From: Desulfuromonadales bacterium
GTDB taxonomy: Bacteria; Desulfobacterota; Desulfuromonadia; Desulfuromonadales; BM103
Assembly (NCBI GenBank): GCA_023701265.1
Contig: JAMPXI010000010.1
Location: forward strand, 1-36,750
Direction of reading: 5' to 3'
DNA length: 36,750 nucleotides
The notes beneath the pieces were generated by a model. The model had not been told where the DNA came from, searched no databases, and saw only the letters and a list, made by a program, of their open reading frames with translations. Below, piece by piece: positions 11,433 through 30,944 of the stretch (its first letter is position 1; every line of letters begins with the position of its first letter). Position numbers and translations under genes: made by a program.

Positions 11433-11567
11433 GACGGTCTCCAGGGTCGATCTTCTGGTTGGGTTGCCGGTGTGGGGAAGCTGCCCCCCGCGGACCCGGC
11501 GTCTCATTTATATATAATAAGCTAATAACTAAAATTGCAGGCGGTGGGGAGTGACCGCACCCGCCGT

Positions 11568-11597
11568 CTGTTAGCATAGAGCCTTCCGGAGAGTCAA
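11568..11597 (-). promoter_or_regulatory. Candidate promoter of hemL
   Basis: On the minus strand TTGACT (11597-11592) precedes TAACAG (11573-11568) by 18 bases, and TGC just ahead of the hexamer gives an extended -10 feature. The leader would be about 130 bases. An alternative AT-rich -10 (TATTATATATAA around 11509-11521) cannot be excluded. Confidence 0.35.
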
Positions 11598-11732
11598 GTT
11601 GTCGAAGGGTTGCCATCCCCGGTGAAAAAGTGGCCTCGAAATACCCGCAACCCTGCCGGAATTTCGGATTAAATACTTCCAAGATCAGCCATTTAAGAGT
11701 TTTTTCACACCCTTTTTGTTTTCCGGTAATAT

Positions 11733-11753
11733 CATATAAAGCCGCATATAAAG
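11733..11753 (+). repeat. Direct repeat CATATAAAG x2 upstream of nuoA
   Basis: CATATAAAG occurs at 11733-11741 and 11745-11753, a 12-base period close to one helical turn. The pair lies about 50 bases upstream of the -35 element, a place where an activator could bind. The repeats also resemble -10 elements. Confidence 0.3.
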
Positions 11754-11800
11754 GGCGTTTGCGAGATTGGTTTTTGTATACAGTATGCGGTATTTTTCGC

Positions 11801-11829
11801 TTGACAAGCCTATTTAATTGTCCTAACGT
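11801..11829 (+). promoter_or_regulatory. Candidate promoter of the nuo operon
   Basis: A consensus -35 TTGACA (11801-11806) is followed after 17 bases by TAACGT (11824-11829, three of six). The start site would be near 11837, giving a leader of about 75 bases before nuoA at 11911. No other good promoter is seen up to nuoN. Confidence 0.5.
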
Positions 11830-11910
11830 GCAGGCGGCCGAGGTGCTTGTTAAACCTATCCTTGTGCCCTCTGTTTGGTTGATCCGTTCATCGGTCAGGA
11901 GGACCTTTCG

Positions 11911-12267
11911 ATGCTGGACAGTTACCTTCCGATTCTTACGCTGATTGTTATCGCCATCGCTTTTGCCGTCGGGTCGACTGTATTTTCCCGCCTGATCGGT
12001 GAAAAGAAGCCGTCCGAAGTCAAGCTGGCACCTTACGAGTGCGGCATGCCCCCGGTCGGTTCGGCCCGCGAACGCTTCTCGGTCAAATTTTATATTATCG
12101 CGATGCTGTTTATCGTCTTCGATATCGAGGTGGTCTTCATGTACCCCTGGGCGGTGATGTTCAAACGTCTCGGGATGTTCGGTTTTGCCGAGATGGGCGT
12201 ATTCATCCTGATCCTGCTGGTCGGTTACATCTACGTCTGGAAAAAAGGAGCGCTGGAATGGGAGTAG
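11911..12267 (+). CDS. nuoA: NADH-quinone oxidoreductase subunit A
   Basis: The start is set at ATG 11911 because CAGGAGG (11896-11902) lies eight bases before it, giving the usual 118 residues. Three helices are visible. The YECG motif (42-45) and the acidic [12 protein letters not shown] segment (D71, E73) are hallmarks of subunit A and line the region near the quinone channel entrance. It is the first gene of the nuo operon, and its last ten bases overlap nuoB. Confidence 0.97.
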
Positions 12268-12767
12268 AAGAAACCCTCGGCAATAACGTCATCACCACGA
12301 GCCTGGACAAGGTTGTCAACTGGTCGCGGGCCAGTTCCCTCTGGCCGATGACCTTTGGCCTTGCCTGCTGTGCCATCGAGATGATGGCGACAGGGGCGGC
12401 TCGCTTCGACCTTGACCGTTTCGGGGTTCTCTTTCGTGCCTCGCCGCGTCAGGCCGACCTGATCGTTATCGCCGGCACCGTGACCAAGAAAATGGCACCG
12501 GTCATTAAAACCGTCTATGAGCAGATGCCGGAACCCCGTTATGTCATCGCCATGGGCGCCTGTGCCTGTTCGGGGGGCGTCTTCGACACCTACAGCACGG
12601 TGCAGGGAGTCGATGAGTTCCTGCCGGTCGATGTCTACGTTCCCGGCTGTCCGCCGCGCCCGGAAGGGCTCCTCTACGGCATCATGAAGTTGCAGGAGAA
12701 GATTATGAAGGAGCGCAACTCCTTCGGTGCGGCGATCGGTATCGGCGAGCGGATCAGCGAGATCTAG
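12258..12767 (+). CDS. nuoB: NADH-quinone oxidoreductase subunit B (N2 cluster)
   Basis: ATG 12258 lies inside the end of nuoA, seven bases after AAAGGAG (12244-12250), and gives a 169-residue protein of normal length; upstream in-frame sequence is nuoA in another frame. It holds the N2 [4Fe-4S] cluster, the last electron carrier before quinone. The ligands are visible as the tandem C37-C38 (GLACCAIEM), C102 (GACACSGG) and C131 (PGCPPRPEG). Overlap with nuoA suggests coupled translation. Confidence 0.98.
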
Positions 12768-12812
12768 GTCGCATCCCTGTCTTCCCTTATTTATTCAACA
12801 GAGAGACCAGTT

Positions 12813-13295
12813 ATGAGCGCACAGGTTGCGGTTGACAAACTGAAGGCCCAGTTCGGCGAAACGGTGCTCACGGTCAGCGAGTTCCGTGGCGAGACCACCG
12901 TGGTCGTCAAGAAGGACGAGATTGTCGCGATTTGCGCATTCCTCAAGAAGGAGCTCGGTTACAACTTTCTGACCGATCTCTGCGCGATCGATTATCTCGG
13001 CCAGGCGCCCCGTTTCATGATCGTTTACCAGTTGTACAACATCGGCATCCACCAGCGTCTGCGGATCAAGGCGGCGGTTGATGAAAGCGATGCGCGCATC
13101 GACACGGTGAGTTGTGTCTGGGCAACGGCCAACTGGCTGGAGCGCGAGTGTTACGATCTCATGGGGATCGTTTTCAACAATCATCCGGACCCGCGCCGCA
13201 TTCTCCTGGCGGCCGACTGGGTCGGTCACCCCCTGCGCAAGGACTACCCGGTGCAGGGACCCGATCGTGAACCGTATCAGGGCCGGCTGCAGTAG
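12813..13295 (+). CDS. nuoC: NADH-quinone oxidoreductase subunit C (30 kDa)
   Basis: The 160-residue protein contains the 30-kDa subunit signature ERECYDLMGIVFNNHPDPRR and ends with the conserved LRKDYPVQG region. It is a separate gene, not fused to nuoD as in E. coli. It has no cofactor and helps hold the peripheral arm together. The ribosome site is weak (AGAGAG), and a 45-base gap separates it from nuoB. Confidence 0.96.
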   Translation: MSAQVAVDKLKAQFGETVLTVSEFRGETTVVVKKDEIVAICAFLKKELGYNFLTDLCAIDYLGQAPRFMIVYQLYNIGIHQRLRIKAAVDESDARIDTVSCVWATANWLERECYDLMGIVFNNHPDPRRILLAADWVGHPLRKDYPVQGPDREPYQGRLQ

Positions 13296-13342
13296 TCTTT
13301 CCCGCAAGCACCAGGTTCCTTCATAGACCAAGAGGCGGACTT

Positions 13343-14521
13343 ATGGCGAATTTTGAAACCATGACCATCAACATGGGCCCTCAGCATCCCTCCACGCACG
13401 GGGTTCTGCAGCTGGTTCTGGAGCTCGACGGCGAAATTGTGGTCAAGGCCACGCCGCATGTCGGTTTCTTGCATCGTGGTGTGGAAAAGCTCTCCGAGCA
13501 CCGCACCTACCATCAGGTGCTCCCCTTGACCGACCGGCTCGATTATCTGGCGCCGATGCACAATAACCTCGGCTATGTGCTGGCCGTGGAGAAGTTGCTC
13601 GGTCTGACCGACGCGATTCCCGAACGCGCCCAGGTTGTGCGGGTGATGCTGGCCGAACTGACTCGTATCAAGAGCCATCTGGTCTGGCTCGCCTGCCATG
13701 CTCTCGATATCGGTGCGATGACCGTGTTCATCTACTGCTTCCGCGAGCGCGAGCACATCATGAACTTCTACGAGAAGATCTCCGGTGCGCGCATGACTTC
13801 CAACTACTTCCGGGTCGGTGGCCTTTCGGCGGATCTTCCGGATGGTATCGAGCAGGAAATCCGTCAGTTCATCGACGACATGCCCGGTCATATCGCTACT
13901 TATGAAGGTTTGCTGACCGGAAACAAGATCTGGCAGAAACGTATCCAGGGCGTTGGCGTAATCAGTGCCGAGGACGCCATCGATCTCGGCGTGACCGGTC
14001 CGTCGCTACGCGGATCCGGGGTCGACTGGGATCTGCGTCGCGACCAGCCTTACAGCGGCTACGAAAATTATGACTTTGAAGTGGCCGTAAGTGATGGCTG
14101 TGACACCTGGGCGCGTTATCATGCCCGTCTGAAAGAGATGCGCGAGTCCTGCAAGATCATCCGTCAGGCTCTCGACAAGCTCAAGCCGGGCCCGATCCTG
14201 GCCGACGCACCGAAGATCTGTCTTCCGCCGAAGAAGGATGTGGTCAACAGCATCGAGGGGTTGATTCATCACTTCAAGATCGTCACCGAAGGGTTCAAGC
14301 CGGAACCGGGCGAAGTGTATGTCGGGGTCGAGAATCCCAAGGGCGAAGTCGGCTTCTATATCGTTTCCGACGGTTCGCCACGCCCCTACCGGATGAAGAT
14401 CCGTTCGGCGTCGTTTGTCAACCTGCAGGCCCTGCCCAAGATGTGCGAGGGTTCGCTGATCGCCGACGTGGTCGCGGTCATTGGAACGCTCGATATCGTC
14501 CTGGGCGAAATCGATCGCTAA
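13343..14521 (+). CDS. nuoD: NADH-quinone oxidoreductase subunit D (49 kDa)
   Basis: The 392-residue protein is full length. It begins with the conserved MGPQHPSTHG loop that reaches the quinone site, followed by GFLHRGVEKL (quinone-binding histidine) and LPLTDRLDYLAPMHNN, which includes the tyrosine that contacts the quinone head group. The C-terminus ends in the typical DIVLGEIDR. Related to the large subunit of [NiFe] hydrogenases, but without the nickel cysteines, so it is a true complex I subunit. Confidence 0.98.
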   Translation: MANFETMTINMGPQHPSTHGVLQLVLELDGEIVVKATPHVGFLHRGVEKLSEHRTYHQVLPLTDRLDYLAPMHNNLGYVLAVEKLLGLTDAIPERAQVVRVMLAELTRIKSHLVWLACHALDIGAMTVFIYCFREREHIMNFYEKISGARMTSNYFRVGGLSADLPDGIEQEIRQFIDDMPGHIATYEGLLTGNKIWQKRIQGVGVISAEDAIDLGVTGPSLRGSGVDWDLRRDQPYSGYENYDFEVAVSDGCDTWARYHARLKEMRESCKIIRQALDKLKPGPILADAPKICLPPKKDVVNSIEGLIHHFKIVTEGFKPEPGEVYVGVENPKGEVGFYIVSDGSPRPYRMKIRSASFVNLQALPKMCEGSLIADVVAVIGTLDIVLGEIDR

Positions 14522-14554
14522 TCCACGTTCCGTCGAGAGCGAGGTGCAAAAGCT

Positions 14555-15055
14555 ATGAGCGAAGCAGTGGAGACCACGGTTGCGGAAGAGGAAATCGATC
14601 TCGCCGGCGCCAATGAAATCCTCGACCACTATGTGGGCATGCCCGGGGCGCTGATGCCGGTGCTGCAGGCAATCCAGGAACATTATGGCTACATTCCCGA
14701 GCCGTGCGTGCACCTGACGGCCGAGCGGTTGAACGTCTATTGCAGCCAGATCTACGGGGTGCTGACCTTCTACGCGCAGTTCCATCTCGAGCCGCGCGGC
14801 AAATACATCGTCCGGGTCTGCAAGGGGACGGCCTGCCACGTCAGGGGGGCCAACCGCATCGGTGACACCCTCCAGGAACGGCTCGGTATTGGCCACGCCG
14901 AAACCACCGCGGATCTCAAGTTCACCGCCGAGTACGTCGCCTGCATTGGTGCCTGCGGTATGGCCCCGGTGATTATGGTCAACGATGCCACCTACGGCAG
15001 CCTGACCGTGCAGAAGATGAACGAGGTTATCGACAAGTACGTGAGCATGGATTAG
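14555..15055 (+). CDS. nuoE: NADH-quinone oxidoreductase subunit E (24 kDa, N1a cluster)
   Basis: The 166-residue thioredoxin-fold protein carries the N1a [2Fe-2S] ligands C89, C94 (CKGTAC), C130 and C134 (CIGAC). A helical N-terminal half (NEILDHYVGMPGALMPVLQ) matches the family. It pairs with NuoF, encoded 23 bases downstream, in the NADH-oxidising module, so this complex I has a full N-module and should oxidise NADH. Many complex I-like enzymes lack it. Confidence 0.97.
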   Translation: MSEAVETTVAEEEIDLAGANEILDHYVGMPGALMPVLQAIQEHYGYIPEPCVHLTAERLNVYCSQIYGVLTFYAQFHLEPRGKYIVRVCKGTACHVRGANRIGDTLQERLGIGHAETTADLKFTAEYVACIGACGMAPVIMVNDATYGSLTVQKMNEVIDKYVSMD

Positions 15056-15078
15056 CCGTAATACGGATCGAGGATTAT

Positions 15079-16860
15079 ATGGCCGAAACTGCGGAAAACA
15101 TCCAAGTACTGATCTGCACCGGCACCGGCGGCTTTGCCTCCGGTGCCCAGAAGGTCATCGACGCTTTCGAAGCTGAGTTCGCGAAGCAGGGCGTCGAAGC
15201 CAAGGTCGGTAAACGCTGTGATATCAAGAAGACCGGTTGCCGCGGGCTGTGCGCCAACGACGTGCTGGTCGACATCGTCCTGCCCGGCCAGGAGGGGGTG
15301 ACTTACGATTTCGTCACTCCGGAGTTGGTGCCGCAGATTGTCGAGGAGCATATCCTCGCCAACCAGGTGGTCGAAAAGAAGAAGGCCGGCAAGTACTACG
15401 GGGACTTCCTGGCGAAGCAGCAGCGCATCATCTTCTCGCGCTGCGGCACCATCGATGCCGAGAGCATCGAGGACTTTGTCGCCCACAACGGGTTCACCGG
15501 CATCAAGAAGGCGGTGACCATGACCCGGGAAGAGGTCATCGAGGAAGTCAAACGCTCCGGCTTGCGCGGCCGTGGGGGCGGCGGCTTCCCGACCGGGGTC
15601 AAGTGGTCGTTCTGCAAGGCCTCGCCGGGTGACCAGAAGTTCTTGATCTGCAACGCCGACGAGGGCGACCCGGGGGCGTTCATGGACCGTTCGGTCCTTG
15701 AGGGCGACCCCTATGGCGTCATCGAGGGGATGATGATCGCCGCCTATGCCATCGGCTGTACTTTTGGCTATGTCTACTGCCGCGCCGAGTACCCGCTGGC
15801 GATCAAGCGCCTGCAGAAAGCCATCGATACCTGCTACGAGCGCGGCATCCTCGGCGATAACTGCATGGGTTTCGGCTTCAAATTCGACATGAAGATCAAG
15901 GCCGGCGCCGGCGCCTTCGTCTGCGGCGAGGAAACCGCCCTGATGGCCTCCATCGAGGGGCAGCGCGGCATGTCTCGCCCCCGCCCGCCGTTCCCGGCGG
16001 TGCGCGGCCTGTGGGGGAAGCCGACCAACATCAACAACGTCGAGACCTTCGCCAACGTCTCCTACATCTTCTATAACGGCGCCGACTGGTTCTCGTCGAT
16101 CGGCACCGAGGGGACCAAGGGGACCAAGATCTTTGCCCTCACCGGCAAGATCAAGCACACCGGTCTGGTTGAAGTCCCCGCCGGCACCACCATGCGCGAG
16201 GTCATCTACGACGTCTGCGGCGGCATTCACAAGAACCGCAAGTTTAAGGCGGTGCAGGCTGGCGGCCCGTCCGGTGGCTGTCTCCCCGCCGAGGCGCTCG
16301 ACGCTCAGGTCGATTACGACTCGCTGATCAAGGCCGGCGCAATGATGGGCTCCGGCGGCCTGGTGGTCATGGACGAGACCACCTGCATGGTCGACGTCGC
16401 CCGCTTCTTCCTCAACTTCACCCGCGTCGAGTCGTGCGGCAAGTGCATCCCCTGCCGCATCGGCCTGAAGATCATGCTCGAGATCCTCGAGCGGATCTGC
16501 GCCGGCGAAGGCAAGGAAGGGGACATTGAACTATTGCAGGACATGTCCTACGACATCAAGAAAAGCTCCTTGTGTGGCCTCGGCCAGACCGCGCCGAACC
16601 CGATCCTCTCCACCATCCGCTATTTCCGGGATGAGTACGAGGCGCACATCAAGGACAAGTACTGCCCGTCCCATGTCTGTAAGCCGCTGCTCTCGTTTGC
16701 AGTGATTGAAGGTACCTGCAAGAAGTGTGGGTTGTGCGTCAAGGCCTGTCCGGTTGACGCCATCCGTTGGGAGAAGGGGCAGGTCGCTTTCATCGAGCTC
16801 GAAAAGTGTACCCAGTGCACCTCCTGTTACGACGCCTGCCCGTTCATGGCGATCGAGTAG
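15079..16860 (+). CDS. nuoF: NADH-quinone oxidoreductase subunit F with extra N- and C-terminal Fe-S domains
   Basis: At 593 residues it is much longer than E. coli NuoF. The core has the NADH site GLRGRGGGGFPTG, the FMN loop CNADEGDPGAF and GAGAFVCGEETAL, and the N3 cluster ligands in ESCGKCIPC with LCGLG further on. An N-terminal thioredoxin-like domain (residues 1-90) precedes it, and two [4Fe-4S] ferredoxin motifs end the protein (C547/550/553/557 and C577/580/583/587). This layout is shared with HydB/HndC-type diaphorases. The N-terminal domain normally binds [2Fe-2S] through four cysteines (CX4C and CX3C); here C13, C54 and C58 are present but the second position is G18, with an extra C47. 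It would oxidise NADH and pass electrons to NuoG. Why it needs extra clusters is not clear from the sequence. Confidence 0.97.
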   Translation: MAETAENIQVLICTGTGGFASGAQKVIDAFEAEFAKQGVEAKVGKRCDIKKTGCRGLCANDVLVDIVLPGQEGVTYDFVTPELVPQIVEEHILANQVVEKKKAGKYYGDFLAKQQRIIFSRCGTIDAESIEDFVAHNGFTGIKKAVTMTREEVIEEVKRSGLRGRGGGGFPTGVKWSFCKASPGDQKFLICNADEGDPGAFMDRSVLEGDPYGVIEGMMIAAYAIGCTFGYVYCRAEYPLAIKRLQKAIDTCYERGILGDNCMGFGFKFDMKIKAGAGAFVCGEETALMASIEGQRGMSRPRPPFPAVRGLWGKPTNINNVETFANVSYIFYNGADWFSSIGTEGTKGTKIFALTGKIKHTGLVEVPAGTTMREVIYDVCGGIHKNRKFKAVQAGGPSGGCLPAEALDAQVDYDSLIKAGAMMGSGGLVVMDETTCMVDVARFFLNFTRVESCGKCIPCRIGLKIMLEILERICAGEGKEGDIELLQDMSYDIKKSSLCGLGQTAPNPILSTIRYFRDEYEAHIKDKYCPSHVCKPLLSFAVIEGTCKKCGLCVKACPVDAIRWEKGQVAFIELEKCTQCTSCYDACPFMAIE

Positions 16861-16893
16861 TCGAACAGACCGGCAAAAAGGATAAGTGACTCC

Positions 16894-19368
16894 ATGGTCA
16901 ACCTGACGATCGACGGCAAACAGATCACGGTCTCCCGGACCGCAACCATTTACGAGGCGGCGCTGGAAGCGGGAATCAATATTCCGGTCCTTTGTTACGC
17001 CAAAAAGCTTCTTCCGTTCGGTGCCTGCCGCATCTGCCTGGTGCAGGTGGAGCAGATGAAGGGGCGCCTGATCCCGTCCTGCACCACCCCGGTTAGCGAG
17101 GGGATGGTGGTCACCACCATGTCCGACGAGATCCTCAAGGTGCGCAAGACCGTCCTCGAGTTCCTGCTCGTCAACCACGTTATCGAATGCCCGGTCTGTG
17201 ACAAGGGCGGCGAGTGCGACCTGCAGGAACTGACCTACGCCCACGAGGTGGTCACCAACCGCTTCCAGGGGGAGAAGTTCAACCTGGAGACCGATGAGGT
17301 CAATCCGCTGATCGAGCGCAACATGAACCGCTGCGTGCTCTGCGGGCGTTGCGTCCGCGTGTGCGACGAAGTGGTGGGCTACGGTTCCTATTCGTTTATC
17401 AATCGCGGCTTCGAAACCAAGATCGCCACTGCTTTTGACCGCGGCCTTAATTGTGAATTTTGCGGTCAGTGCGTGTCGATGTGCCCGGTGGGGGCGATCC
17501 TGCCCCGTCCGTTCAAATTCAAGGCGCGCCCCTGGCAACTCAAGGAAGTCGACACGGTCTGCGGCTATTGCGGCAACGGCTGCACCGTGTCCCTCGGCGT
17601 TCTCGACAAGAAAATCGAGACGATCCGCTTCAACGACAAGATCGGCGTCAATGACGGCAATCTCTGTATCCGCGGCCGTTTCGGCTACTCCTATGTCAAC
17701 AGCGAGGAGCGCCTGACCACCCCGCTGGTCCGCAAAAATGGCCAGTTGGTCGAGGCTAGCTGGGATGAAGCGCTGCAGGTCGTGGCCGATGGCTTCAAGC
17801 AGGCGCAGGCCAGCTTGGGAATCCTCTCGGGCGCGCGTCTGACCAACGAGGAACTGTTCCTGCTCAAGAACCTGGCCAAGGTTGCCGGGACCGCCAACCT
17901 CGACCATTCCGGGGGCGAATGCTACAAGGGGGTCACCGAGGGGCTCGCCGGTTCACTCGGCATTGCCGCCTCCACTGGAACCTTCCCGCAGGTCGAGGAG
18001 TGCGAGGCGATTCTTGCCATCCGCTCCGACTTCTACGAAACCCACCCGGTATTCGGCATGGTGGTCAACCAGGCGGTCAAGCGCAACGAGGCGCAACTCT
18101 GGCTGGTCGCCGACAAGCGTGGCAAATTCGCCAAGCTCCCCGGTGCCCAAAACCTGCTGCATCGCCCGGGGATGGAACTGGACGTGCTCAACGGTTTGGC
18201 CAGGGTGCTCCTGGACGAGGGTCTGGCCCAGACCGAAGGGGTCGAGGGCTTGGCTGAACTGAAGCAGGCGTTGGCCGAGTTCGGCGCTGATCAGGTGGCT
18301 ACCCGCACTGGTGTCGATGCCGAAACGTTGCGTGTTGCGGCTCGCCAGCTGGCTGCTGCCAAGAAAAGTGCCATTCTGCTGGCTTATGGACTCCCCTATA
18401 CGGCCTATAGCCGCGAACTTGGTATTGCCGCCGCCAATCTGGCGATCCTCGTCGGCATTCCGGGGCGTGCCGGCAGCGGGCTTTATCTGTGTGGTGAAAA
18501 AGCCAACAGCCAGGGGGCGATCGACCTCGGCATCGTGCCGCAGACGGGTGGCCTCGGCGCCCAGGCGATGCTTGATGCCGCCGCCAATGGCAAGCTCAAT
18601 GCCCTCTACGTGGTCGGTGAAGATCTGCTGATCTCCTATCCTGATCGCGGCAAGGTTGAGAAAGCCCTGGAAAAGGTGCCGTTCCTGGTTGTGCAGGACA
18701 TCTTCCTCTCGTCGACCGCAGCCAAAGCCCATGTGGTGCTGCCGGCCGCCTCCTTCGCCGAGAAGGATGGAACCTTTACCAATGCCGAGCGCCGTATCCA
18801 GCGGGTGCGCCCCGGCATTCCCCTCCCGGGTCAGGCGAAGACCGACGGGACGATTATTGCCGCTCTCATCGAAAAGCTCAGCGGTAACCTGGCGTTCACC
18901 GGCCCAGCTGCCATTTTTGCCGAGATCGGTCGCAGCGTGCCGGCTTATGCGACAGTCAGTTTCAATGGCATTGGCCCTCAGGGTTTTGTCTGGGGTGGAG
19001 AGATCCTGACTCCGTCACGCCGTCGCTTGCAGCCGGTCGGTGGTGCCGTCCCGGTGGAGGGTACGTTCCAGTTGCTCACCGGCAGCGCGCTCTATCACAG
19101 TGGCACGGTATCGACTCGCGCCAAGGGGCCGCAGGCCGTTGTTGCCGAAGCTTATGTCGAGTTTGGCCGCGAAGATGCCAAAGCGCTGCAACTCAAGGAT
19201 GGCGATCTGGTCAAGGTGACGGGGAACGGTGTCGAACTGCGACTTAAAGCCAAAGTGGACAACCGGCTGCCGAAAGGGGTGCTTTTTGCTCCCTATCATT
19301 TTGCTGCCGCCGGGATCAACCGGCTTTACAAGGGTGAGGCGGCCGTCTCCGTGACGGTCAGCAAGTAA
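16894..19368 (+). CDS. nuoG: NADH-quinone oxidoreductase subunit G
   Basis: The 824-residue protein carries the chain of clusters between NuoF and NuoI: N1b (C34, C45, C48, C63), N5 with its histidine ligand (H95, C99, C102, C108), two ferredoxin-type [4Fe-4S] motifs (C147/150/153/157 and C187/190/193/197), and an N7-type motif (C223, C226, C230, C258). A molybdopterin-oxidoreductase fold follows (residues 220-820), without a recognisable active-site cysteine or selenocysteine. The second ferredoxin motif is more than the single N4-type cluster of E. coli NuoG and resembles the N-terminal part of iron hydrogenases and formate dehydrogenases. The next gene begins 22 bases after the stop. Confidence 0.96.
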   Translation: MVNLTIDGKQITVSRTATIYEAALEAGINIPVLCYAKKLLPFGACRICLVQVEQMKGRLIPSCTTPVSEGMVVTTMSDEILKVRKTVLEFLLVNHVIECPVCDKGGECDLQELTYAHEVVTNRFQGEKFNLETDEVNPLIERNMNRCVLCGRCVRVCDEVVGYGSYSFINRGFETKIATAFDRGLNCEFCGQCVSMCPVGAILPRPFKFKARPWQLKEVDTVCGYCGNGCTVSLGVLDKKIETIRFNDKIGVNDGNLCIRGRFGYSYVNSEERLTTPLVRKNGQLVEASWDEALQVVADGFKQAQASLGILSGARLTNEELFLLKNLAKVAGTANLDHSGGECYKGVTEGLAGSLGIAASTGTFPQVEECEAILAIRSDFYETHPVFGMVVNQAVKRNEAQLWLVADKRGKFAKLPGAQNLLHRPGMELDVLNGLARVLLDEGLAQTEGVEGLAELKQALAEFGADQVATRTGVDAETLRVAARQLAAAKKSAILLAYGLPYTAYSRELGIAAANLAILVGIPGRAGSGLYLCGEKANSQGAIDLGIVPQTGGLGAQAMLDAAANGKLNALYVVGEDLLISYPDRGKVEKALEKVPFLVVQDIFLSSTAAKAHVVLPAASFAEKDGTFTNAERRIQRVRPGIPLPGQAKTDGTIIAALIEKLSGNLAFTGPAAIFAEIGRSVPAYATVSFNGIGPQGFVWGGEILTPSRRRLQPVGGAVPVEGTFQLLTGSALYHSGTVSTRAKGPQAVVAEAYVEFGREDAKALQLKDGDLVKVTGNGVELRLKAKVDNRLPKGVLFAPYHFAAAGINRLYKGEAAVSVTVSK

Positions 19369-19390
19369 GGCGATACACGGGATAACTTCG

Positions 19391-20353
19391 ATGGAATGCC
19401 CCAAATGCCAGGCGCGGGTGATGACAAGCGCCAAGTTCTGCGACCAGTGCGGTCTCAATCTGGTCGAGAACGTCGAGTTTCTGCACCGCAAGGCGGTTGA
19501 TCTTTACCACCGCGGGCAGATCGACGAGGCCCTGACATTTTGGGACCGTGCGCTTGAGTACGAGCCGGGCTTCAGCAAGGGTCACTACTACCGGGGGCTG
19601 GCACTTTACGACCACGGTGACCTGGCAGAGGCGGTCAGCGCCTTCCAGCAGGCCCTGGTAGGAGAAGCCGAACCGTTCCGGGTTTGGTTCAAATTAGGAA
19701 TGGCCCAGTACGGGCTGGGTAATCTGGAGGCGAGTGTCGAAAGCTTTCAACGGGCTCACGCGATCAACCCGGGCAGTGCCGAAACCCTTTACCGACTCGG
19801 TCTGTCGCATCTGCGCATGTCGGAGCTGGATGCCGCCCGTACCTCGCTGGAGCAGGCGGTCCGGATCAACCCCAAATATACCCGAGCCCTTTACATCCTC
19901 GGGATGGTGGTCGCACAGCAGGGGGATCAGGGCGAAGCAATCGACCTGTTCCGACGGGTCGAAGCCGTCAGCCCGACCTACACGGCGGCCCGGTTCGAAC
20001 TCGGTATGGCGTTGTTCCGCCAGGGGAAGCTGCGGGAGGCGGTTGAGCAGTTCGACGGCGTTGAGGCGGTCAGCCCACGTTTCGCCCCCGCCCCGTACAT
20101 GCTTGGCGAGTGCCACCGCAAGTTAGGGGTTTTCGGAGAGGCCGTTGCTGCCTACCGGCGCATGTTGGAGCTCAACCCGGACGATGCCGAAGCCTGGGTG
20201 CGGATTGCCGAGTGCCAGCTGCAGCAGGATTTACTTGACGCTGCCCGCGAGGCTCTCGATAAGGCGCTGGCCATCAGCCCGCAACATGCCGAGGCAAATT
20301 ATCTGAAGAAACATCTGGGTGAAATGGCTACGCCGCACAAGCCCGGTTTTTAG
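19391..20353 (+). CDS. Zinc-ribbon plus eight-TPR protein inserted in the nuo operon
   Basis: The 320-residue soluble protein begins with a zinc ribbon (C3-x2-C6 and C17-x2-C20). Residues 28-299 divide exactly into eight consecutive 34-residue tetratricopeptide repeats with no insertions (first repeat 28-61, last 266-299), and a 21-residue tail follows. TPR arrays form curved scaffolds that hold other proteins. It has no signal peptide, so it should be cytoplasmic, on the side where the complex I peripheral arm is assembled. It lies 22 bases after nuoG and 46 before nuoH, on the same strand, so it should be co-transcribed with them. It is not a complex I subunit. An assembly, stability or regulatory role for complex I is inferred from position alone. 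I do not recall it in the nuo operon of Geobacter sulfurreducens. Confidence 0.88.
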   Translation: MECPKCQARVMTSAKFCDQCGLNLVENVEFLHRKAVDLYHRGQIDEALTFWDRALEYEPGFSKGHYYRGLALYDHGDLAEAVSAFQQALVGEAEPFRVWFKLGMAQYGLGNLEASVESFQRAHAINPGSAETLYRLGLSHLRMSELDAARTSLEQAVRINPKYTRALYILGMVVAQQGDQGEAIDLFRRVEAVSPTYTAARFELGMALFRQGKLREAVEQFDGVEAVSPRFAPAPYMLGECHRKLGVFGEAVAAYRRMLELNPDDAEAWVRIAECQLQQDLLDAAREALDKALAISPQHAEANYLKKHLGEMATPHKPGF

Positions 20354-20399
20354 TGGCAAAAACGTTCACAGTCCAAACGGAGCGAGGAAGAGGATTGTC

Positions 20400-21464
20400 A
20401 TGACGGAAATGCTGAGCATGTCGAATAATTGGCCACTGTTCGTGGGAATAATGCTGCTGAAGCTGGTGGTGGTCTTCGCTGTGACCATGTTGATCGTTGC
20501 CTACGCCACCTGGTGTGAGCGCAAGGTCATTGGCCACATGCAGACCCGTCTCGGTCCCATGCGCACCGGATGGCACGGCTTGCTGCAGCCGATCGCCGAC
20601 GGGCTCAAGCTCTTCTTCAAGGAAGACATCATCCCGGCCCAGGCCAGCAAGGTGCCGTTCCTGTTGGCGCCGATGATGATCCTGGTCCCGGCGCTGATCA
20701 CCATTGCGGTCATCCCCTTCGGCAAAGACGTTACGGTGGGAGGGTTCACGGTGCCGCTGCAGATCACCGACCTGAACATCGGGGTGCTCTACATCCTGGC
20801 GTTCGCCGGTCTCGGCGTCTACGGCATCGTGCTGGCCGGCTGGAGCTCGAACAGCAAGTACGCCCTGCTCGGTGGCGTGCGCGCCACGGCTCAGATGATC
20901 TCCTACGAACTGGCCGCCGGCATCACCATCATTGCGGTATTCATGCTCAGCGAGACCCTGAGCCTGCGCGAGATCGTCGCCTTGCAGGCGGGTCCGCTCT
21001 GGGGCACAATCACCTTCCTGCCCGACTGGTACGTTTACAAGCAACCGCTCGCCTTCGGCCTGTTCATCATTACCGGTCTGGCTGAGATCAACCGGACGCC
21101 GTTCGACATGCCGGAAGCCGAAAGCGAACTGGTCTCAGGGTTCTGTACCGAATACTCGTCGATGAAGTACGCCCTGTTCTTCATGGCCGAATACGCCAAC
21201 ATGATCGTTATCTCCGCTATCGCCGCGACCCTGTTCCTTGGTGGCTGGGGTGCTCCGCTCAATATCGGGATTCTGAACATGGTGCCTGGTGTTGTCTGGT
21301 TGCTGGCGAAAGTCTTTGCCATCATGTTCTTTTTCATCTGGCTGCGCGCCACCTTGCCGCGCGTGCGCTATGACCAGCTGATGCAGCTCGGGTGGAAGGT
21401 TCTGATCCCCCTGGCGCTGGCCAACCTGGCCGTGACCGGCCTGGTGGTCGTTCTGCAGCTGTAA
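20400..21464 (+). CDS. nuoH: NADH-quinone oxidoreductase subunit H
   Basis: ATG 20400, after GAGGAAGAGG, gives 354 residues; the frame runs 27 codons further upstream into the end of the TPR gene and is not used. The eight-helix protein links the quinone site to the proton channels. Conserved segments include WCERKVIGHMQTRLGP with LLQPIADGLKLFFKED, and EINRTPFDMPEAESELVSGF, the acidic loop near the quinone entrance. Confidence 0.97.
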   Translation: MTEMLSMSNNWPLFVGIMLLKLVVVFAVTMLIVAYATWCERKVIGHMQTRLGPMRTGWHGLLQPIADGLKLFFKEDIIPAQASKVPFLLAPMMILVPALITIAVIPFGKDVTVGGFTVPLQITDLNIGVLYILAFAGLGVYGIVLAGWSSNSKYALLGGVRATAQMISYELAAGITIIAVFMLSETLSLREIVALQAGPLWGTITFLPDWYVYKQPLAFGLFIITGLAEINRTPFDMPEAESELVSGFCTEYSSMKYALFFMAEYANMIVISAIAATLFLGGWGAPLNIGILNMVPGVVWLLAKVFAIMFFFIWLRATLPRVRYDQLMQLGWKVLIPLALANLAVTGLVVVLQL

Positions 21465-21491
21465 ACGCTCCGAGAATACGAGGTCAAACCA

Positions 21492-21887
21492 ATGTTCACA
21501 GCGATCGCCAAAGGCCTAGGCATTACTTTCAAGCACATGCTGCCGGGGCATTCGACCACCGTGCAGTATCCGACCGTCAAACTAAAAATGTCCGCTCGCT
21601 TCCGCGGCCTGCATCGTCTGGTGCCGACCCAGGACCGCGAGAAATGCGTGGCCTGCTACCTCTGTCCGACGGTATGCCCGGCCAAGTGCATTACGGTCGA
21701 AGCGGCCGAGAACGACAAGGGTGAAAAGTACCCACGGATCTACAAGATCGATCTGCTGCGCTGCATCTTCTGCGGTTACTGCGTGGAAGCCTGCCCGGTC
21801 GAGGCGTTGGAAATGACCGACGCATACGAGCTGGCCAACTACCGGCGCGAGGATTTCGAATTCACCAAGGAGCGGCTGCTCAAGTAA
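21492..21887 (+). CDS. nuoI: NADH-quinone oxidoreductase subunit I (N6a/N6b clusters)
   Basis: The 131-residue ferredoxin-like protein carries two [4Fe-4S] motifs, C52/55/58/62 and C91/94/97/101, which relay electrons from NuoG to the N2 cluster in NuoB. An amphipathic N-terminus (AIAKGLGITFKHML) would dock it to the membrane arm. It is somewhat shorter than the E. coli protein, mainly at the C-terminus. One extra cysteine (C66) follows the first motif. Confidence 0.97.
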   Translation: MFTAIAKGLGITFKHMLPGHSTTVQYPTVKLKMSARFRGLHRLVPTQDREKCVACYLCPTVCPAKCITVEAAENDKGEKYPRIYKIDLLRCIFCGYCVEACPVEALEMTDAYELANYRREDFEFTKERLLK

Positions 21888-21907
21888 GCCGGAGGAGCGT
21901 GTAAACC

Positions 21908-22411
21908 ATGGAGACAATTTTCTTCTATCTAGTTGCGCTGGTCACTGTCGTTTCGGGATATCTGGTAGTCCGCTGCCAGAGTCCGGTCAACAGCGGCCTC
22001 GCCCTGGTCAACACCTTCTTCTGCCTGGCGATCTTCTACGTCATGCTCTATGCGCCGTTCATGGCCGCCATCCAGGTCATCGTCTATGCCGGGGCGATCA
22101 TGGTACTGATCCTCTTCGTCATCATGCTGCTGAACCTTGGTACCGAGGCACGCAAGCGTTATACCCACGGTGTGGTGTGGGCGGCCATTGCCAGCCTGCT
22201 GGTGCTGCTCAATCTGGTGTTCTTCGTCAAGCGCGGCCGGGTGACCGGTGCCGAGGGTGACATCACCAGCTCCCTGATCATGACCGAGGGCCATACCGAG
22301 CTGATCGGCAAGGCTCTGTATACCGATTTCCTGCTCCCCTTCGAAATTGCCTCGGTCCTGTTGCTGGTGGCGATTGTCGGTGCGGTAGTGCTGGCCAAGA
22401 AGGACGTCTAA
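21908..22411 (+). CDS. nuoJ: NADH-quinone oxidoreductase subunit J
   Basis: The 167-residue membrane protein has five hydrophobic segments. The motif QVIVYAGAIMVLILFVIMLLN is the conserved third helix, where a bulge in the chain is part of the coupling mechanism in known structures. It starts 20 bases after nuoI and is followed by nuoK in the usual order. Confidence 0.96.
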   Translation: METIFFYLVALVTVVSGYLVVRCQSPVNSGLALVNTFFCLAIFYVMLYAPFMAAIQVIVYAGAIMVLILFVIMLLNLGTEARKRYTHGVVWAAIASLLVLLNLVFFVKRGRVTGAEGDITSSLIMTEGHTELIGKALYTDFLLPFEIASVLLLVAIVGAVVLAKKDV

Positions 22412-22441
22412 CCCCTACTCGGGATAACGGGAGATTCACAG

Positions 22442-22741
22442 ATGAGCGTTTACCATTACCTGACCGTCAGCGCTATTCTCTTTGCCCTTGGAACCTATGG
22501 GGTGCTGACCCGGCGCAACGCGATTGTCATTTTCATGTGCATCGAACTGATGCTCAACTCGGTGAACCTGACCTTTATCGCCCTGTCCCGGCATCTCAAC
22601 AGCCTGGATGGCCAGATATTCGTGTTCTTTGTCATGACCGTGGCAGCTGCCGAGGCGGCGGTCGGCCTGGCTTTGATGATCGCCTTCTTCCGTAATCGGG
22701 AGACGATCGATGTTGATCAGATCAATCTGCTGAAGTGGTAA
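22442..22741 (+). CDS. nuoK: NADH-quinone oxidoreductase subunit K
   Basis: The 99-residue protein has three helices. The two membrane glutamates essential for proton pumping are present at E35 ([10 protein letters not shown]) and E71 ([11 protein letters not shown]), corresponding to E36 and E72 of E. coli. Length and order in the operon are normal. Confidence 0.97.
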
Positions 22742-22793
22742 GAGCTGCCTGTCTGGTTTTGTGAACGGTTTACTTCGTCCGGAGGATAGATAG

Positions 22794-24782
22794 ATGCACG
22801 ACAAACTGTGGCTAATCCCCTTCTTCCCGCTGGTCGGTTCGATCATCAACGGGTTGTTCGGCAAGCGCTTCATCCGGAACGAGGCGGTGATCGGGGCAAT
22901 CGGCACCGGCGCGGTGTTCCTGTCGTTCCTGGTCACCTGCATGCATTTCTTCCAGTTGGGTGGCGAGACGGAGCGTATTCAGCAGGTCGTGGCGTCCTGG
23001 ATGACGGTCGGCAATCTGCAGGTCGATTGGGGGTTCCTGTTCGATCCCCTCTCGGCACTGATGCTGATGGTCATCTGCGGAGTCGGCTCGCTCATCCATC
23101 TCTACTCGATCGGCTACATGCACGGTGAGGAGGGGTTCTACCGCTTCTTCAGCTACCTGAATCTGTTCGTGTTCTCCATGATCATGCTGGTGCTGGGTAA
23201 CAACGCCCTAGTCATGTTCGTCGGCTGGGAAGGCGTTGGCCTCTGCTCCTACCTGCTGATCGGTTACTACTTCGAGAAGCAGAGTGCCGGCGATGCGGCG
23301 AAAAAAGCCTTCGTCATGAACCGCGTTGGCGATTTCGGTTTCCTGCTCGGCCTGTTCACCATCTTCTGGACCCTTGGCAGCAAGCATGGCGTGTGGACCA
23401 TCAACTTCGTCGAGATCAGCGAGCAGGCGCACCTGCTTTCGGGTGACATGATGTTCGGTGTCGGTGTAACGACCGTTGCGACCCTCTGTTTCTTCCTCGG
23501 CGCCACCGGCAAGTCGGCGCAGATTCCGCTCTTCACCTGGTTGCCGGACGCCATGGAAGGCCCGACTCCGGTTTCCGCCCTGATCCATGCGGCAACCATG
23601 GTCACCGCCGGCGTCTACATGATTGGCCGCATGAACGTGCTCTTCGCCATGAGCCCGACCACCATGGCCGTGGTCGCACTGGTCGGTGCCTGCACGGCGA
23701 TTTTCGCCGCCAGCATCGGCTTTGCCCAGAACGACATCAAGCGCGTGCTGGCCTATTCGACCGTTTCCCAGCTTGGCTTCATGTTCATGGCCATGGGGGT
23801 CGGCGCCTTCACCGCCGGTATCTTCCACCTGATGACCCATGCCTTCTTCAAAGCCTGCCTGTTCCTCGGCTCCGGCTCGGTCATCCACGCCATGCACCAT
23901 GCCCTGCATCACGCGCATGTTGACGATGATCCGCAGGACATGCGCAACATGGGTGGGCTGCGCAAGTTCATGCCGATTACTCACGCGACCTTCGGGCTCT
24001 CCTGTCTGGCGATCGCCGGCATCCCCTTCTTCTCCGGTTTCTTCTCCAAGGACGAGATTCTCTGGTGGACCTTCGCCTCGACCCGAGGCAGCCTGCTGGT
24101 CTGGGGGATTGGCGCCGTTGCTGCCACCATGACCGCCTTCTACATGTTCCGTTGCCTGTACATGACCTTCTATGGCGAGCAGCGCACCCACAAGAAGGCC
24201 AAGGATCATGTCCACGAATCACCATGGGTCATCACTCTGCCGTTGGTGGTTCTGGCCGCACTGGCGACGGTCGGTGGTCTGGTAGGGATCCCGCACGCGA
24301 TTGATATTCTCCATGTAGGCAACAAGCTGGAGCATTTCCTGGCACCGGTTTTCGAGCATTCCCAGAAGCTCCACGCGATCGAGGCCCACGGTTCTGCTGC
24401 GACCGAGATCAGCCTGATGGTCTTCTCGGTGGTGGTTGCGGCGATCGGTATCAGCTGCGCAACCTTGTTTTATCTGAAGAAAACGGACCTGCCAGGCAAA
24501 TTTACCAGCACGTTCCCGAACCTGCACCGCTGGGTCTTCAACAAGTGGTACATCGACGAGCTCTACGATGCCCTGTTCGTCAACCCGACCAAGCGGCTTG
24601 GTACCTTCTGCTGGAAGGGCTTTGATGTCCAGGTGGTCGACGGCATCGTCAACGGCACCGGGAAGCTGGTTAACGTCTTCTCGACCGCGTTGCGCTACAC
24701 ACAAAGTGGCCTGTTCCAAAATTACGCCCTGACCATGGTTCTTGGCATGGTGGTCATGGTGGCGATATTCATCCTGCAATAA
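22794..24782 (+). CDS. nuoL: NADH-quinone oxidoreductase subunit L
   Basis: The 662-residue antiporter-like subunit pumps protons at the far end of the membrane arm. Conserved features include WEGVGLCSYLLIGYY (pumping glutamate), the LPDAMEGPTPVSALIHAATMV segment, and HAFFKACLFLGSGSVIHAMHH. The C-terminal region carries the long lateral helix and ends with one more membrane segment (VLGMVVMVAIFIL). It is longer than the related NuoM and NuoN, as expected. Confidence 0.97.
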   Translation: MHDKLWLIPFFPLVGSIINGLFGKRFIRNEAVIGAIGTGAVFLSFLVTCMHFFQLGGETERIQQVVASWMTVGNLQVDWGFLFDPLSALMLMVICGVGSLIHLYSIGYMHGEEGFYRFFSYLNLFVFSMIMLVLGNNALVMFVGWEGVGLCSYLLIGYYFEKQSAGDAAKKAFVMNRVGDFGFLLGLFTIFWTLGSKHGVWTINFVEISEQAHLLSGDMMFGVGVTTVATLCFFLGATGKSAQIPLFTWLPDAMEGPTPVSALIHAATMVTAGVYMIGRMNVLFAMSPTTMAVVALVGACTAIFAASIGFAQNDIKRVLAYSTVSQLGFMFMAMGVGAFTAGIFHLMTHAFFKACLFLGSGSVIHAMHHALHHAHVDDDPQDMRNMGGLRKFMPITHATFGLSCLAIAGIPFFSGFFSKDEILWWTFASTRGSLLVWGIGAVAATMTAFYMFRCLYMTFYGEQRTHKKAKDHVHESPWVITLPLVVLAALATVGGLVGIPHAIDILHVGNKLEHFLAPVFEHSQKLHAIEAHGSAATEISLMVFSVVVAAIGISCATLFYLKKTDLPGKFTSTFPNLHRWVFNKWYIDELYDALFVNPTKRLGTFCWKGFDVQVVDGIVNGTGKLVNVFSTALRYTQSGLFQNYALTMVLGMVVMVAIFILQ

Positions 24783-24826
24783 TGAGCCACTCCGTTCACG
24801 TGATGAGATAAAAGGAGCGCAGACCC

Positions 24827-26392
24827 ATGAGTAATCTCCTCAGCCTGATGACCTTCTTCCCGCTTGTCGGGATGGTTGTCCTCCTGTTCCTCCCCCGGGA
24901 GTCCGACCGTCTGCTCAAAACGGTGACTCTGGTCATCACCCTGATCACGTTCCTGATCAGTCTGCCGCTGGCCTTCGATGATGCCTTCCGCACTTCGGCG
25001 GAGATGCGTTACGTCGAGTTTGCGCAATGGATCAACATCGGCGAATATTTCCGCATGAACTATTACGTCGGCATCGACGGCATCAGCCTCTGGCTGGTCC
25101 TGCTGACCACGTTCATCATGCCGATCTCGGTGCTTTCGACCTGGCATGCGGTCGAGAAGAACACCAAGGGGTTCATGGCCCTGCTGCTCCTGCTCGAAAC
25201 CGGTATGCTCGGTGCCTTCATCGCCCTCGACGTGTTCCTCTTCTACATCTTCTGGGAACTGATGTTGATCCCGATGTACTTCCTGATCGGCATCTGGGGC
25301 GGCAAGAACCGGATCTACGCGGCAATCAAGTTCTTCATTTTCACTGCCGTCGGCTCGCTGCTGATGCTGGTGGCCATCATCTACGTCTACTACTACGCGG
25401 TGAAGGCGGGACTGCCGTTCCAAAGCGGGTTCAGCATCGCCCACTTCTATCAGCTTAACCTGCCGGCGCATCTGCAGACCTGGCTGTTCCTGGCCTTTGC
25501 CTTCAGCTTTGCCATCAAGGTGCCGATGTTCCCGGTGCATACCTGGTTGCCCGACGCACATACCGAGGCGCCGACCGCCGGTTCGGTCATTCTGGCCGCT
25601 ATCATGCTGAAGATGGGGACCTACGGCTACGTGCGCTTCGCCATCCCGCTCTTCCCGGAGGCAACCCTGCAGTTTACCCCACTGTTCGCCACGCTCGCGG
25701 TGATCGGCATCATTTATGGCGCGCTGGTGGCGATGATGCAGGATGATGTTAAAAAACTGGTCGCCTACTCATCAGTATCGCACCTTGGCTTCGTTATGCT
25801 CGGCATTTTTGCCATGAACCTGCAGGGGCTCGCCGGCGGCATGCTGCAGATGATCAACCACGGCATCTCCACCGGCGCACTGTTCCTTATCGTCGGCTTT
25901 ATCTACGAACGCCGCCATACCCGCCTGATCGCCGAGTTTGGCGGGATCTCCAAAACCATGCCGGTGTTCGCGACGATCTTCATGATTATTACCTTCTCCT
26001 CGATCGGTCTCCCCGGAACCAACGGCTTTGTCGGCGAGTTCCTGATCCTCGTGGGTGCCTTTGAAAGCGGCCTTCGCTGGTATGCGGTGCTCGCAACCAC
26101 CGGCGTCATTCTTGCCGCGGTCTATATGCTGTGGATGTTCCAGCGGGTCATGATGGGCAAGATTACCAACCCAAAGAACGAGAAACTCGAAGACCTCTCG
26201 GCGCGCGAGGTGGCAGTCATGCTGCCGCTGCTGCTGTTTGTATTCTGGATCGGTTTCTACCCCAATACCTTCTTGGACAAGATGAACCCTTCGCTGGAAA
26301 ATCTCATCCAGCAGGTTAAGGGGAAACAGCAGGTCGCCATGCTGGTTGAGGCACCGACCCCGTCGGTAGCCAAGATCACGGTCAACGAATAA
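24827..26392 (+). CDS. nuoM: NADH-quinone oxidoreductase subunit M
   Basis: The 521-residue antiporter-like subunit contains YYVGIDGISLWLVLLT, FWELMLIPMYFLIGIWGG (pumping glutamate), LPDAHTEAPTAGSVILAAIML with the following KMGTYG lysine, and KKLVAYSSVSHLGFVMLG. AAAGGAG precedes ATG 24827. The short polar C-terminal tail after the last helix (about residues 490-521) has no known function. Confidence 0.97.
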   Translation: MSNLLSLMTFFPLVGMVVLLFLPRESDRLLKTVTLVITLITFLISLPLAFDDAFRTSAEMRYVEFAQWINIGEYFRMNYYVGIDGISLWLVLLTTFIMPISVLSTWHAVEKNTKGFMALLLLLETGMLGAFIALDVFLFYIFWELMLIPMYFLIGIWGGKNRIYAAIKFFIFTAVGSLLMLVAIIYVYYYAVKAGLPFQSGFSIAHFYQLNLPAHLQTWLFLAFAFSFAIKVPMFPVHTWLPDAHTEAPTAGSVILAAIMLKMGTYGYVRFAIPLFPEATLQFTPLFATLAVIGIIYGALVAMMQDDVKKLVAYSSVSHLGFVMLGIFAMNLQGLAGGMLQMINHGISTGALFLIVGFIYERRHTRLIAEFGGISKTMPVFATIFMIITFSSIGLPGTNGFVGEFLILVGAFESGLRWYAVLATTGVILAAVYMLWMFQRVMMGKITNPKNEKLEDLSAREVAVMLPLLLFVFWIGFYPNTFLDKMNPSLENLIQQVKGKQQVAMLVEAPTPSVAKITVNE

Positions 26393-26424
26393 GCCCGGAA
26401 TTAACGTCGCTGAGGAGCCTGTTC

Positions 26425-27885
26425 ATGGAAAACCTGGTGCAAATAGCCCTGCAGAATGTCAACCTTGCGGCCATCATGCCGTCTCTGGTCCTGGTCTGCT
26501 TCGGCATGGGCCTGCTGTTGATCAATGTTTTTCTGCCCCGTGGTACCACTCGCCCGGCGGCATGGGTCAGTCTGGTCGGGATTGCGGTGACTGCGGGTGT
26601 GGTCCTGCAGGGTTGGGGGAATCCTCAGTATGGTTTCTCCGATGCAGTGGCCCTCGATAATTTCGCGACCTTCTTCAATGTGACCTTCCTGGTGGCAGCA
26701 GCAATGACCATCCTGATGTCGGATGACTATCTGCATCGCGAAGGCTACCCGGTCGGCGAATACTATCCGCTGATTCTGTTCGCTACCGCCGGGGCGATGT
26801 GGATGGCTTCGGGTACCGACATGATGACCATCTTCCTCGGGCTGGAAGTGATGTCGGTCAGTCTTTACGTGCTGGCCGGGTTCTTCCGCGGCCAGGTTGC
26901 CTCCAACGAGGCCGGTCTCAAATACTTCCTGCTGGGAGCCTTCTCCACCGGGTTCTTGCTCTATGGCATCGCCCTGATCTACGGGGTGACTGGTTCGACG
27001 CGCCTGACCGAGATCGGCGTCTATCTCAACTCGCATTCTTCTTTGCTGACCAACCCGATGACCTTGGCCGGGCTGGCCTTGCTCTCCATCGGGTTTCTGT
27101 TCAAGATTGGCGCGGCGCCGTTCCACATGTGGGCGCCAGACGTTTACCAAGGTTCGCCGACCCCGATTACGGCTTTTATGAGTGCCGGGCCGAAGGCCGC
27201 CGCTTTCGCTGCTTTCCTGCGAATCCTCGAATATTGCTTCTTCAGCCTCAAGCCGGAATGGACCATGATGCTCTGGGTGCTGGCGGTGTTGACCATGACC
27301 ATCGGCAACTTCATTGCCATCTCCCAGACCAACATCAAGCGAATGCTGGCTTATTCCTCGATCTCGCATGCCGGATACGTGATGGTAGGCTTGGTCGCGG
27401 CCAACGAGATCGGTTATTCCGGCGTGCTCTTTTATATGCTGGCCTACACCTTCATGAACCTGGGTGCTTTTGCGGTGCTGGTGCTGGCCGGCAAGAAGGG
27501 GGAGGAGAACCTGACGTTGGACGGTTTCGCCGGCTTTGGCTATAAGCGGCCGTTCCTCGGCGTGGCGATGACCATCTTCCTCTTCTCGCTGATGAGCATG
27601 CCGCCGACGGCAGGTTTTGCCGGCAAGTTCTATCTTTTCGCCGGGGCCATCAAATCGGGATACATCTGGCTGGCTGTCATTGCCATGTTGAATTCGGCAG
27701 TTTCCTTCTACTATTACCTGCGAGTCATGGTTTACATGTACTTCCGCGAGCCTACTGAGGACTATGCCTGGGTCGGTATGCCAGTTGGCGTGCTGGCGAC
27801 CATCATCTTTGCCATCATCGGCAGCCTCTATCTAGGCATTCTGCCGAACGAGGTCATGGCCATGGCGAAAATGGCGATCTTCTAG
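26425..27885 (+). CDS. nuoN: NADH-quinone oxidoreductase subunit N
   Basis: The 486-residue antiporter-like subunit completes the set of 14. Typical segments are FLGLEVMSVSLYVLAG (pumping glutamate), FKIGAAPFHMWAPDVYQGSPTP and KRMLAYSSISHAGYVMVGL. It is the last gene of the operon and a strong terminator follows 24 bases after the stop. Confidence 0.97.
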   Translation: MENLVQIALQNVNLAAIMPSLVLVCFGMGLLLINVFLPRGTTRPAAWVSLVGIAVTAGVVLQGWGNPQYGFSDAVALDNFATFFNVTFLVAAAMTILMSDDYLHREGYPVGEYYPLILFATAGAMWMASGTDMMTIFLGLEVMSVSLYVLAGFFRGQVASNEAGLKYFLLGAFSTGFLLYGIALIYGVTGSTRLTEIGVYLNSHSSLLTNPMTLAGLALLSIGFLFKIGAAPFHMWAPDVYQGSPTPITAFMSAGPKAAAFAAFLRILEYCFFSLKPEWTMMLWVLAVLTMTIGNFIAISQTNIKRMLAYSSISHAGYVMVGLVAANEIGYSGVLFYMLAYTFMNLGAFAVLVLAGKKGEENLTLDGFAGFGYKRPFLGVAMTIFLFSLMSMPPTAGFAGKFYLFAGAIKSGYIWLAVIAMLNSAVSFYYYLRVMVYMYFREPTEDYAWVGMPVGVLATIIFAIIGSLYLGILPNEVMAMAKMAIF

Positions 27886-27908
27886 GTCAGTGATCTCAAG
27901 CATTTCAA

Positions 27909-27942
27909 ACCCCCGGCGATATCGTCGGGGGTTTTGTTTTTT
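27909..27942 (+). terminator. Rho-independent terminator of the nuo operon
   Basis: A stem of about ten pairs (27909-27918 with 27923-27932, one G-U pair) encloses a short ATAT loop and is followed by a T-rich run to 27942. It separates the nuo operon from the menaquinone genes. Confidence 0.9.
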
Positions 27943-28011
27943 CAGGTTTACTCGGGGAAGAGTTACGTTATGGTTTAACAGGAATTGTCATACACAGGCT
28001 CAGGATTGGGT

Positions 28012-29388: not shown

Positions 29389-29404
29389 TAAAGGAGGCAG
29401 GGTC

Positions 29405-29983
29405 ATGCGTCATTTTATGCTATGGCTGTTGCTCCTCTGGCCGGCAACCGGGCTTGCCGCCTCACCGGTGCCGACTGAAATCTACGCCGAAGTCGATCAT
29501 GCCTTGCGTCCGGCAAAGGTATTAGCCACACCGGAAGCATACCTGGGGCGCACATTGCTGCTTGGCGGTGTCGTGGAGCGCACGGTCAGCGAACCAGGGA
29601 ACGTGCTGGTGGAGATTGTCTGCTATAACCTGACGGACGATGATCGTCCCGTACAGCCTGACCCGGTTCTGGGGCGAGTGCTCATCAGTGGTTCGGAGCT
29701 TGACGGGGCAATCCTGCAGCCGGGGCGGTTGCTCACCCTGGTCGGGGAGGTCGTCGGCCGGGGTCAATCCGACACAGGTGCGCTTCCCTTGCTTAAGGTC
29801 AAATTCATTCATCACTGGCCGACCGCCGAGGAAGAGGCGGAGCGAGAAGCTGCCCGCCGGTATTACCGCCCCTACAATCACTGGTGCGATCCGTGGTACT
29901 ACGATCCATGGTGTGACCCCTGGTATTATGGACCGTATCCGCGCTGGCATTTTGGCGCCGGATACTACCGTCACTGGCATTGA
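29405..29983 (+). CDS. Slp-like envelope protein with a Trp/Tyr-rich tail
   Basis: ATG 29405 is preceded by AAGGAGG (29391-29397) at seven bases. The 192-residue product has a signal peptide (hydrophobic residues 4-18, cleavage likely after GLAA). The body shows the pattern of the Slp outer-membrane lipoprotein family: YLGRTLLLGGVVE, an EIVCYNLTDDDRPV segment, GRVLISGSELD and GRLLTLVGEVVG, ending near HHW. Unlike Slp it has no lipobox cysteine, so it may be soluble in the periplasm. The C-terminus (residues 153-192) is rich in Tyr, Trp, His and Asp-Pro, with the unit CDPWYY repeated (161-166 and 170-175). It lies 16 bases after mqnL and 87 before mqnP, so it is co-oriented with quinone genes; no role there is known. 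Confidence 0.65.
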   Translation: MRHFMLWLLLLWPATGLAASPVPTEIYAEVDHALRPAKVLATPEAYLGRTLLLGGVVERTVSEPGNVLVEIVCYNLTDDDRPVQPDPVLGRVLISGSELDGAILQPGRLLTLVGEVVGRGQSDTGALPLLKVKFIHHWPTAEEEAEREAARRYYRPYNHWCDPWYYDPWCDPWYYGPYPRWHFGAGYYRHWH

Positions 29984-29996
29984 TCTCCCGCCACGC

Positions 29997-30943: not shown

Positions 30944-30944
30944 T

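Follow-up and report, generated by a model that had tools for sequence, protein, structure and literature searches.

A zinc-ribbon TPR protein gene between nuoG and nuoH whose presence is uncoupled from that of complex I

LapB/YciM is an FtsH adaptor composed of TPRs and a rubredoxin-type metal domain, while Ycf3 (NF002725) is a soluble TPR factor for the biogenesis of a redox membrane complex. Among bacterial complexes I, that of Thermus thermophilus contains a lineage-specific extra protein, Nqo16, an accessory structural subunit that wedges into the peripheral arm (PMC8762328). The gene analyzed here also adds a protein to a complex I locus, as it encodes a zinc-ribbon/TPR protein between nuoG and nuoH. 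No description of a TPR gene in nuo operons was found in the literature searched, which covered few subscription papers.

The gene is located at 19391..20353 on the forward strand of a 36,750-nucleotide stretch of DNA from a Desulfuromonadales bacterium (the window), and its open reading frame starts with ATG and codes for a product of 320 amino acids. The window holds a complete set of 14 nuo genes, the zinc-ribbon/TPR gene being the fifteenth gene of the operon. The operon spans 11875..27885 (+), with nuoA inside 11875-12267, followed by nuoB to nuoG, the TPR gene, and nuoH to nuoN. As the original prediction stated, the gene is on the same strand as its two neighbors and closely spaced with them: 22 bp separate it from nuoG upstream (16894..19368, +) and 46 bp from nuoH downstream (20400..21464, +; PF00146, 1e-125). 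The nuoG assignment is based on Pfam and NCBIfam, with a score of 463.3 bits against TIGR01973 NuoG, for which the cut-off is 470.05. The TPR gene is probably cotranscribed with the nuo operon. A strong terminator-like hairpin after nuoN (27907..27934, +), with 12 pairs and a T run, likely marks the operon end; it is a pattern match only, the overall number of such matches being at chance level, and the matches near nuoG-TPR-nuoH are short intragenic stems, also at chance level. Downstream of nuoN, positions 27985-34796 hold a menaquinone-type cluster encoding UbiD, an Slp lipoprotein, UbiA, a UbiX-like flavoprotein, two CofH/MqnC-type radical SAM proteins and an aminotransferase. Elsewhere in the same genome, further NADHdh matches are found on G000:C12 and G000:C144, and the NuoH- and NuoJ-type matches on G000:C12 belong to a second complex I-like cluster.

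The encoded protein begins with a predicted Cys4 zinc ribbon (residues 1-22; 19391..19456, +) of the pattern C3-x2-C6-x10-C17-x2-C20, with two CxxC knuckles. Residues 1-30 alone score 25.1 bits against Pfam Zn_Ribbon_1 (cut-off 25) and 27.1 against DZR, just below its cut-off of 27.3, and all four cysteines are invariant (>=97%) among 33 orthologues. The protein can thus be placed among the zinc ribbons, and zinc binding is predicted. Eight contiguous 34-residue TPRs follow (residues 28-299; 19472..20287, +), starting at residues 28, 62, 96, 130, 164, 198, 232 and 266, a spacing of exactly 34 with zero insertions. Membership in the TPR repeat superfamily is supported by a Pfam TPR_2 match (5e-52), by the alignment register and its entropy, and by an AlphaFold2 model made with three sequences (pLDDT 92.8), which has 16 helices in TPR register plus short C-terminal helices. 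Both the zinc ribbon and the eight uninterrupted repeats of the original prediction were therefore borne out. In its fold the protein is a TPR superhelix of the ordinary kind, with 8- and 16-repeat consensus CTPR proteins and the TPR domain of OGT as nearest matches (TMq 0.75-0.79). No membrane anchor was found in the sequence or the model. Among the 25 best NCBIfam matches listed, no curated equivalog cut-off was reached; the PilW equivalog, for instance, matched at 84.8 bits with a cut-off of 154.

The original prediction proposed a survey of nuo operons for the gene and its phylogenetic range. Based on a six-frame search of 277 genomes of the class (E<=1e-45), 40 encode an orthologue, one per genome and all within the window's order; the proteins are 53-95% identical with almost no indels. 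Among 395 sampled genomes of the phylum there were five matches, all from the same order. As both searches matched only this order, probably the Desulfuromonadales, the TPR gene appears to be order-specific. Two close relatives, Desulfuromonas sp. MnB_14 (VEPG01000093) and Deltaproteobacteria bacterium D1FN1.001 (VAUL01000006), are MAGs of the same genus, and a scan of genome contigs returned only these two and one 40-residue zinc-ribbon match. All 28 genomes with both an orthologue and a type-1 nuo operon have the order nuoG-TPR-nuoH, so the gene is encoded with the operon, as would be expected of a dedicated complex I assembly factor. Given this constant position and the lack of a curated equivalog, its description as a non-standard, extra gene of the nuo operon holds. 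A different departure from the usual gene order is seen in a type-1 operon of family f18 (L085; G047:C1:3415000-3434000, 11254-13528), where nuoD is directly followed by nuoH and nuoE, nuoF and nuoG are missing, which suggests a complex I without the NADH module.

The gene is not present wherever complex I is present among close relatives. Intact type-1 operons without it were found in six or more lineages. Most of the window's own family is among these, and there nuoG and nuoH are 80-106 bp apart. Across the order, genomes without an orthologue have a closed-up operon with a nuoG-nuoH spacing of 49-107 bp, and in outgroup orders of the class the spacing is 34-48 bp. On a tree of NuoG+NuoH+NuoI, a single gain of the gene requires seven losses, or six with weak nodes collapsed, and unrestricted parsimony gives eight changes; most genera of the family to which the window belongs are among those that lost it. 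The residues of NuoG (C-terminal 490 aa), NuoH and NuoI that change with gene loss are not in excess (3 columns versus 4 in the reverse control). As no residue there tracks gene loss, a contact site on these three subunits cannot be named. These results bear on the role first proposed for the protein, that of a dedicated assembly factor linking the peripheral arm with the membrane arm, against which absence of the gene from the nuo operons of close relatives was to count; most of the window's family displays just that absence. The position of the gene at the boundary of peripheral-arm and membrane-arm genes is consistent with such a role, and by analogy so is the aid TPR proteins give to other redox complexes, as Ycf3 does to photosystem I. 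However, operons that dispense with the gene and the lack of tracking residues both argue against it.

The reverse situation is found in one sister family, f4, to which all 12 orthologue-bearing genomes without a type-1 NuoH belong. Where f4 genomes have any NuoH, it is of a second type, ~51-54% identical. Three of the genomes (G114, G115 and G116) keep the TPR gene with zero matches to PF00146 (NADHdh/NuoH) and zero to PF00499 (NuoJ); two of the three are rated 99-100% complete. In seven of the eight f4 loci read, the TPR gene is 3' of a poly(A)-polymerase-like gene (termed pcnB), the contig ending in the eighth, and ubiD is downstream in all seven loci that extend far enough, with or without two hydantoinase genes between. 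This hydantoinase A/B pair (hyuAB) is present in L031, L032, L039 and L042 and absent in L035, L036 and L037. In several loci ubiA, ubiX and radical-SAM menaquinone (mqn)-type genes are found further downstream. Since these downstream neighbors are the ones that follow the window's nuoN, where the same ubiD cluster is directly 3', the nuo genes on both sides were lost in f4 while the TPR gene stayed. A loss of all fourteen nuo-1 structural genes has been described for P. carbinolicus, in two papers that do not mention a TPR gene (PMC2923632; PMC2669807).

The f4 copies are neither absent nor decaying. Closer f4 pairs (dS 0.76-1.22) have dN/dS values of 0.04-0.13, indicative of strong purifying selection, and most nuo-linked pairs of similar dS have values of 0.05-0.08, with dS close to saturation for many pairs. 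Low dN/dS and intact reading frames led us to reject the possibility that the f4 copies are relics. As the gene is kept under purifying selection in f4 genomes without NuoH and NuoJ, the TPR protein is functional without any complex I. Complex I genes thus exist without the TPR gene, and the TPR gene is under purifying selection without complex I genes. In its strict form, a dedicated arm-joining factor is refuted by gene-less operons and operon-less genes alike, and we consider that role very unlikely overall. Uncoupling in both directions is also what would be expected if an unrelated TPR gene had inserted once into the ancestral operon within the order and were merely cotranscribed as a passenger, with no link to complex I; the absence of NuoG, NuoH or NuoI residues that track the gene is in keeping with that history. 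Against it, the gene has never relocated in any of the 28 nuo-1-bearing genomes.

What the protein might bind is suggested by the pattern of conservation over the repeats. Which TPR positions face the concave groove is known from general TPR structure, and among unrelated TPR proteins the groove positions are the variable, ligand-specific ones. In the 33 orthologues, concave positions 2, 5, 6, 9, 12 and 13 have mean entropies of 0.33-0.60 bits, versus 2.2-2.7 bits for the outward helix B positions 18, 19, 22, 25, 26 and 29. Invariant groove residues, f4 included, comprise R97, K101, Y107, E131, R135, R142, R165 and Q176, among others. Because positions that are normally ligand-specific are here near-invariant, the sequences point to one conserved ligand.

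The C-terminal end of the protein has a different history. Seventeen columns are conserved in nuo-linked copies and changed in f4, and 13 of these are past residue 270, in the last repeat, the C-terminal helix and the tail. The tail, TPHKPGF (residues 314-320; 20330..20350, +), is among the most conserved parts of nuo-linked copies and was not part of the original prediction. In the AlphaFold2 model its last six residues, 315-320, are disordered (pLDDT <50). The tail is exact in 22 of 28 nuo-linked proteins, variant in three (PGY; PGN plus three residues; TPHKSG plus an extension) and absent in three, and none of the eight f4 proteins read carries it. Synonymous sites vary among its codons, so conservation for DNA-level reasons was rejected. 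Recurrence of the motif in other proteins was rejected as well: each of ten genomes searched has a single instance of PHKPG with F or Y and then a stop, always in the TPR gene. TPHKPGF thus looks like a short linear motif. As f4 copies are sister to the tail-bearing f1 copies with full support in the tree, the tail was lost on the f4 line, and that placement led us to reject a loss shared with f5. Two lines that retain nuo lost it too; since G103, G104 and G127 have nuo without the tail, TPHKPGF is not strictly tied to complex I. Still, its limitation to nuo-linked copies speaks against a mere passenger, a history we regard as improbable.

Two accounts then compete over what the protein does. 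In the main rival, an ancestral, non-essential accessory or assembly factor of complex I was repurposed once, acquiring a new client in f4 after operon loss. An operon position that is unbroken in all nuo-1-bearing orthologue genomes would fit such an origin, as would the changed C-terminal repeat and missing tail of f4, and the gene outlived nuo in a single event, which may be one co-option. However, the groove has hardly changed in f4, an indication that the ligand is the same, and there were at least six losses of the gene in lineages that keep complex I. We consider repurposing somewhat unlikely. In the account we favor, tentatively, the protein is a peptide-binding scaffold or chaperone whose main client is not complex I, which is co-expressed with complex I and probably touches it via its C-terminal part. 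Under this scenario, the zinc ribbon would cap the N-terminus of an eight-TPR superhelix in a soluble cytosolic protein whose concave groove holds one conserved peptide-like ligand. As the gene and complex I each occur without the other, the core client is likely not specific to complex I; a maturation factor in shared use would be one candidate, some other membrane or redox enzyme a second. This double dissociation and the groove conservation are the basis for favoring a client other than complex I. The operon location would provide co-expression with complex I. The last repeat and the disordered TPHKPGF may serve as an accessory docking element in the complex I setting, one that decayed in f4, where the operon was lost; the place of the gene in the operon and the set of copies with the tail suggest this extra contact, either with complex I itself or with its assembly intermediates. 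Complex I biogenesis would accordingly be helped by the TPR protein and not depend on it.

A more specific form of the favored account, which we judge less probable than the repurposing scenario, is that this is a maturation scaffold confined to one order, so far undescribed, with complex I as one of several membrane redox enzymes served, the groove taking a shared client and TPHKPGF docking specifically on the 14-subunit complex I or its intermediates. Should a shared client be found, the protein would count as a new maturation scaffold for bacterial redox enzymes. The locus provides a natural experiment both ways, as one family lost the flanking complex I genes and kept the TPR gene while others did the reverse. 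The role of an accessory protein encoded within an operon can thereby be tested directly, and the case cautions against assigning function from operon position alone.

Both domains of the protein are common. In the literature searched, we found no account of the two together with a conserved tail in a gene that is embedded in an operon and yet has a history independent of the complex, and we regard the protein as an uncharacterized zinc-ribbon TPR scaffold. Like consensus CTPR superhelices, the OGT TPR domain and MamA, it has a long TPR superhelix without gaps and a concave groove for peptide binding. The TPR scaffold MamA (NF040959) is its best NCBIfam match by E-value among the matches listed, but at 121 bits against a cut-off of 200, and the window gene has no magnetosome context and has a zinc ribbon and a conserved tail. 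LapB/YciM is similar as an adaptor with a TPR array and a small Cys4 metal-binding domain; however, the LapB match is 48.4 versus a cut-off of 363 bits, the metal domain is C-terminal in LapB and N-terminal here, and the window protein is without an apparent membrane anchor in sequence or model. Ycf3 (33.5 versus 143 bits) has fewer TPRs and acts on a different complex, and the link of the window protein to its complex is not obligatory. Like Nqo16, the TPR protein is a lineage-specific extra protein associated with bacterial complex I; unlike Nqo16, a structural subunit, it is known here from sequence and its presence is uncoupled from that of complex I.
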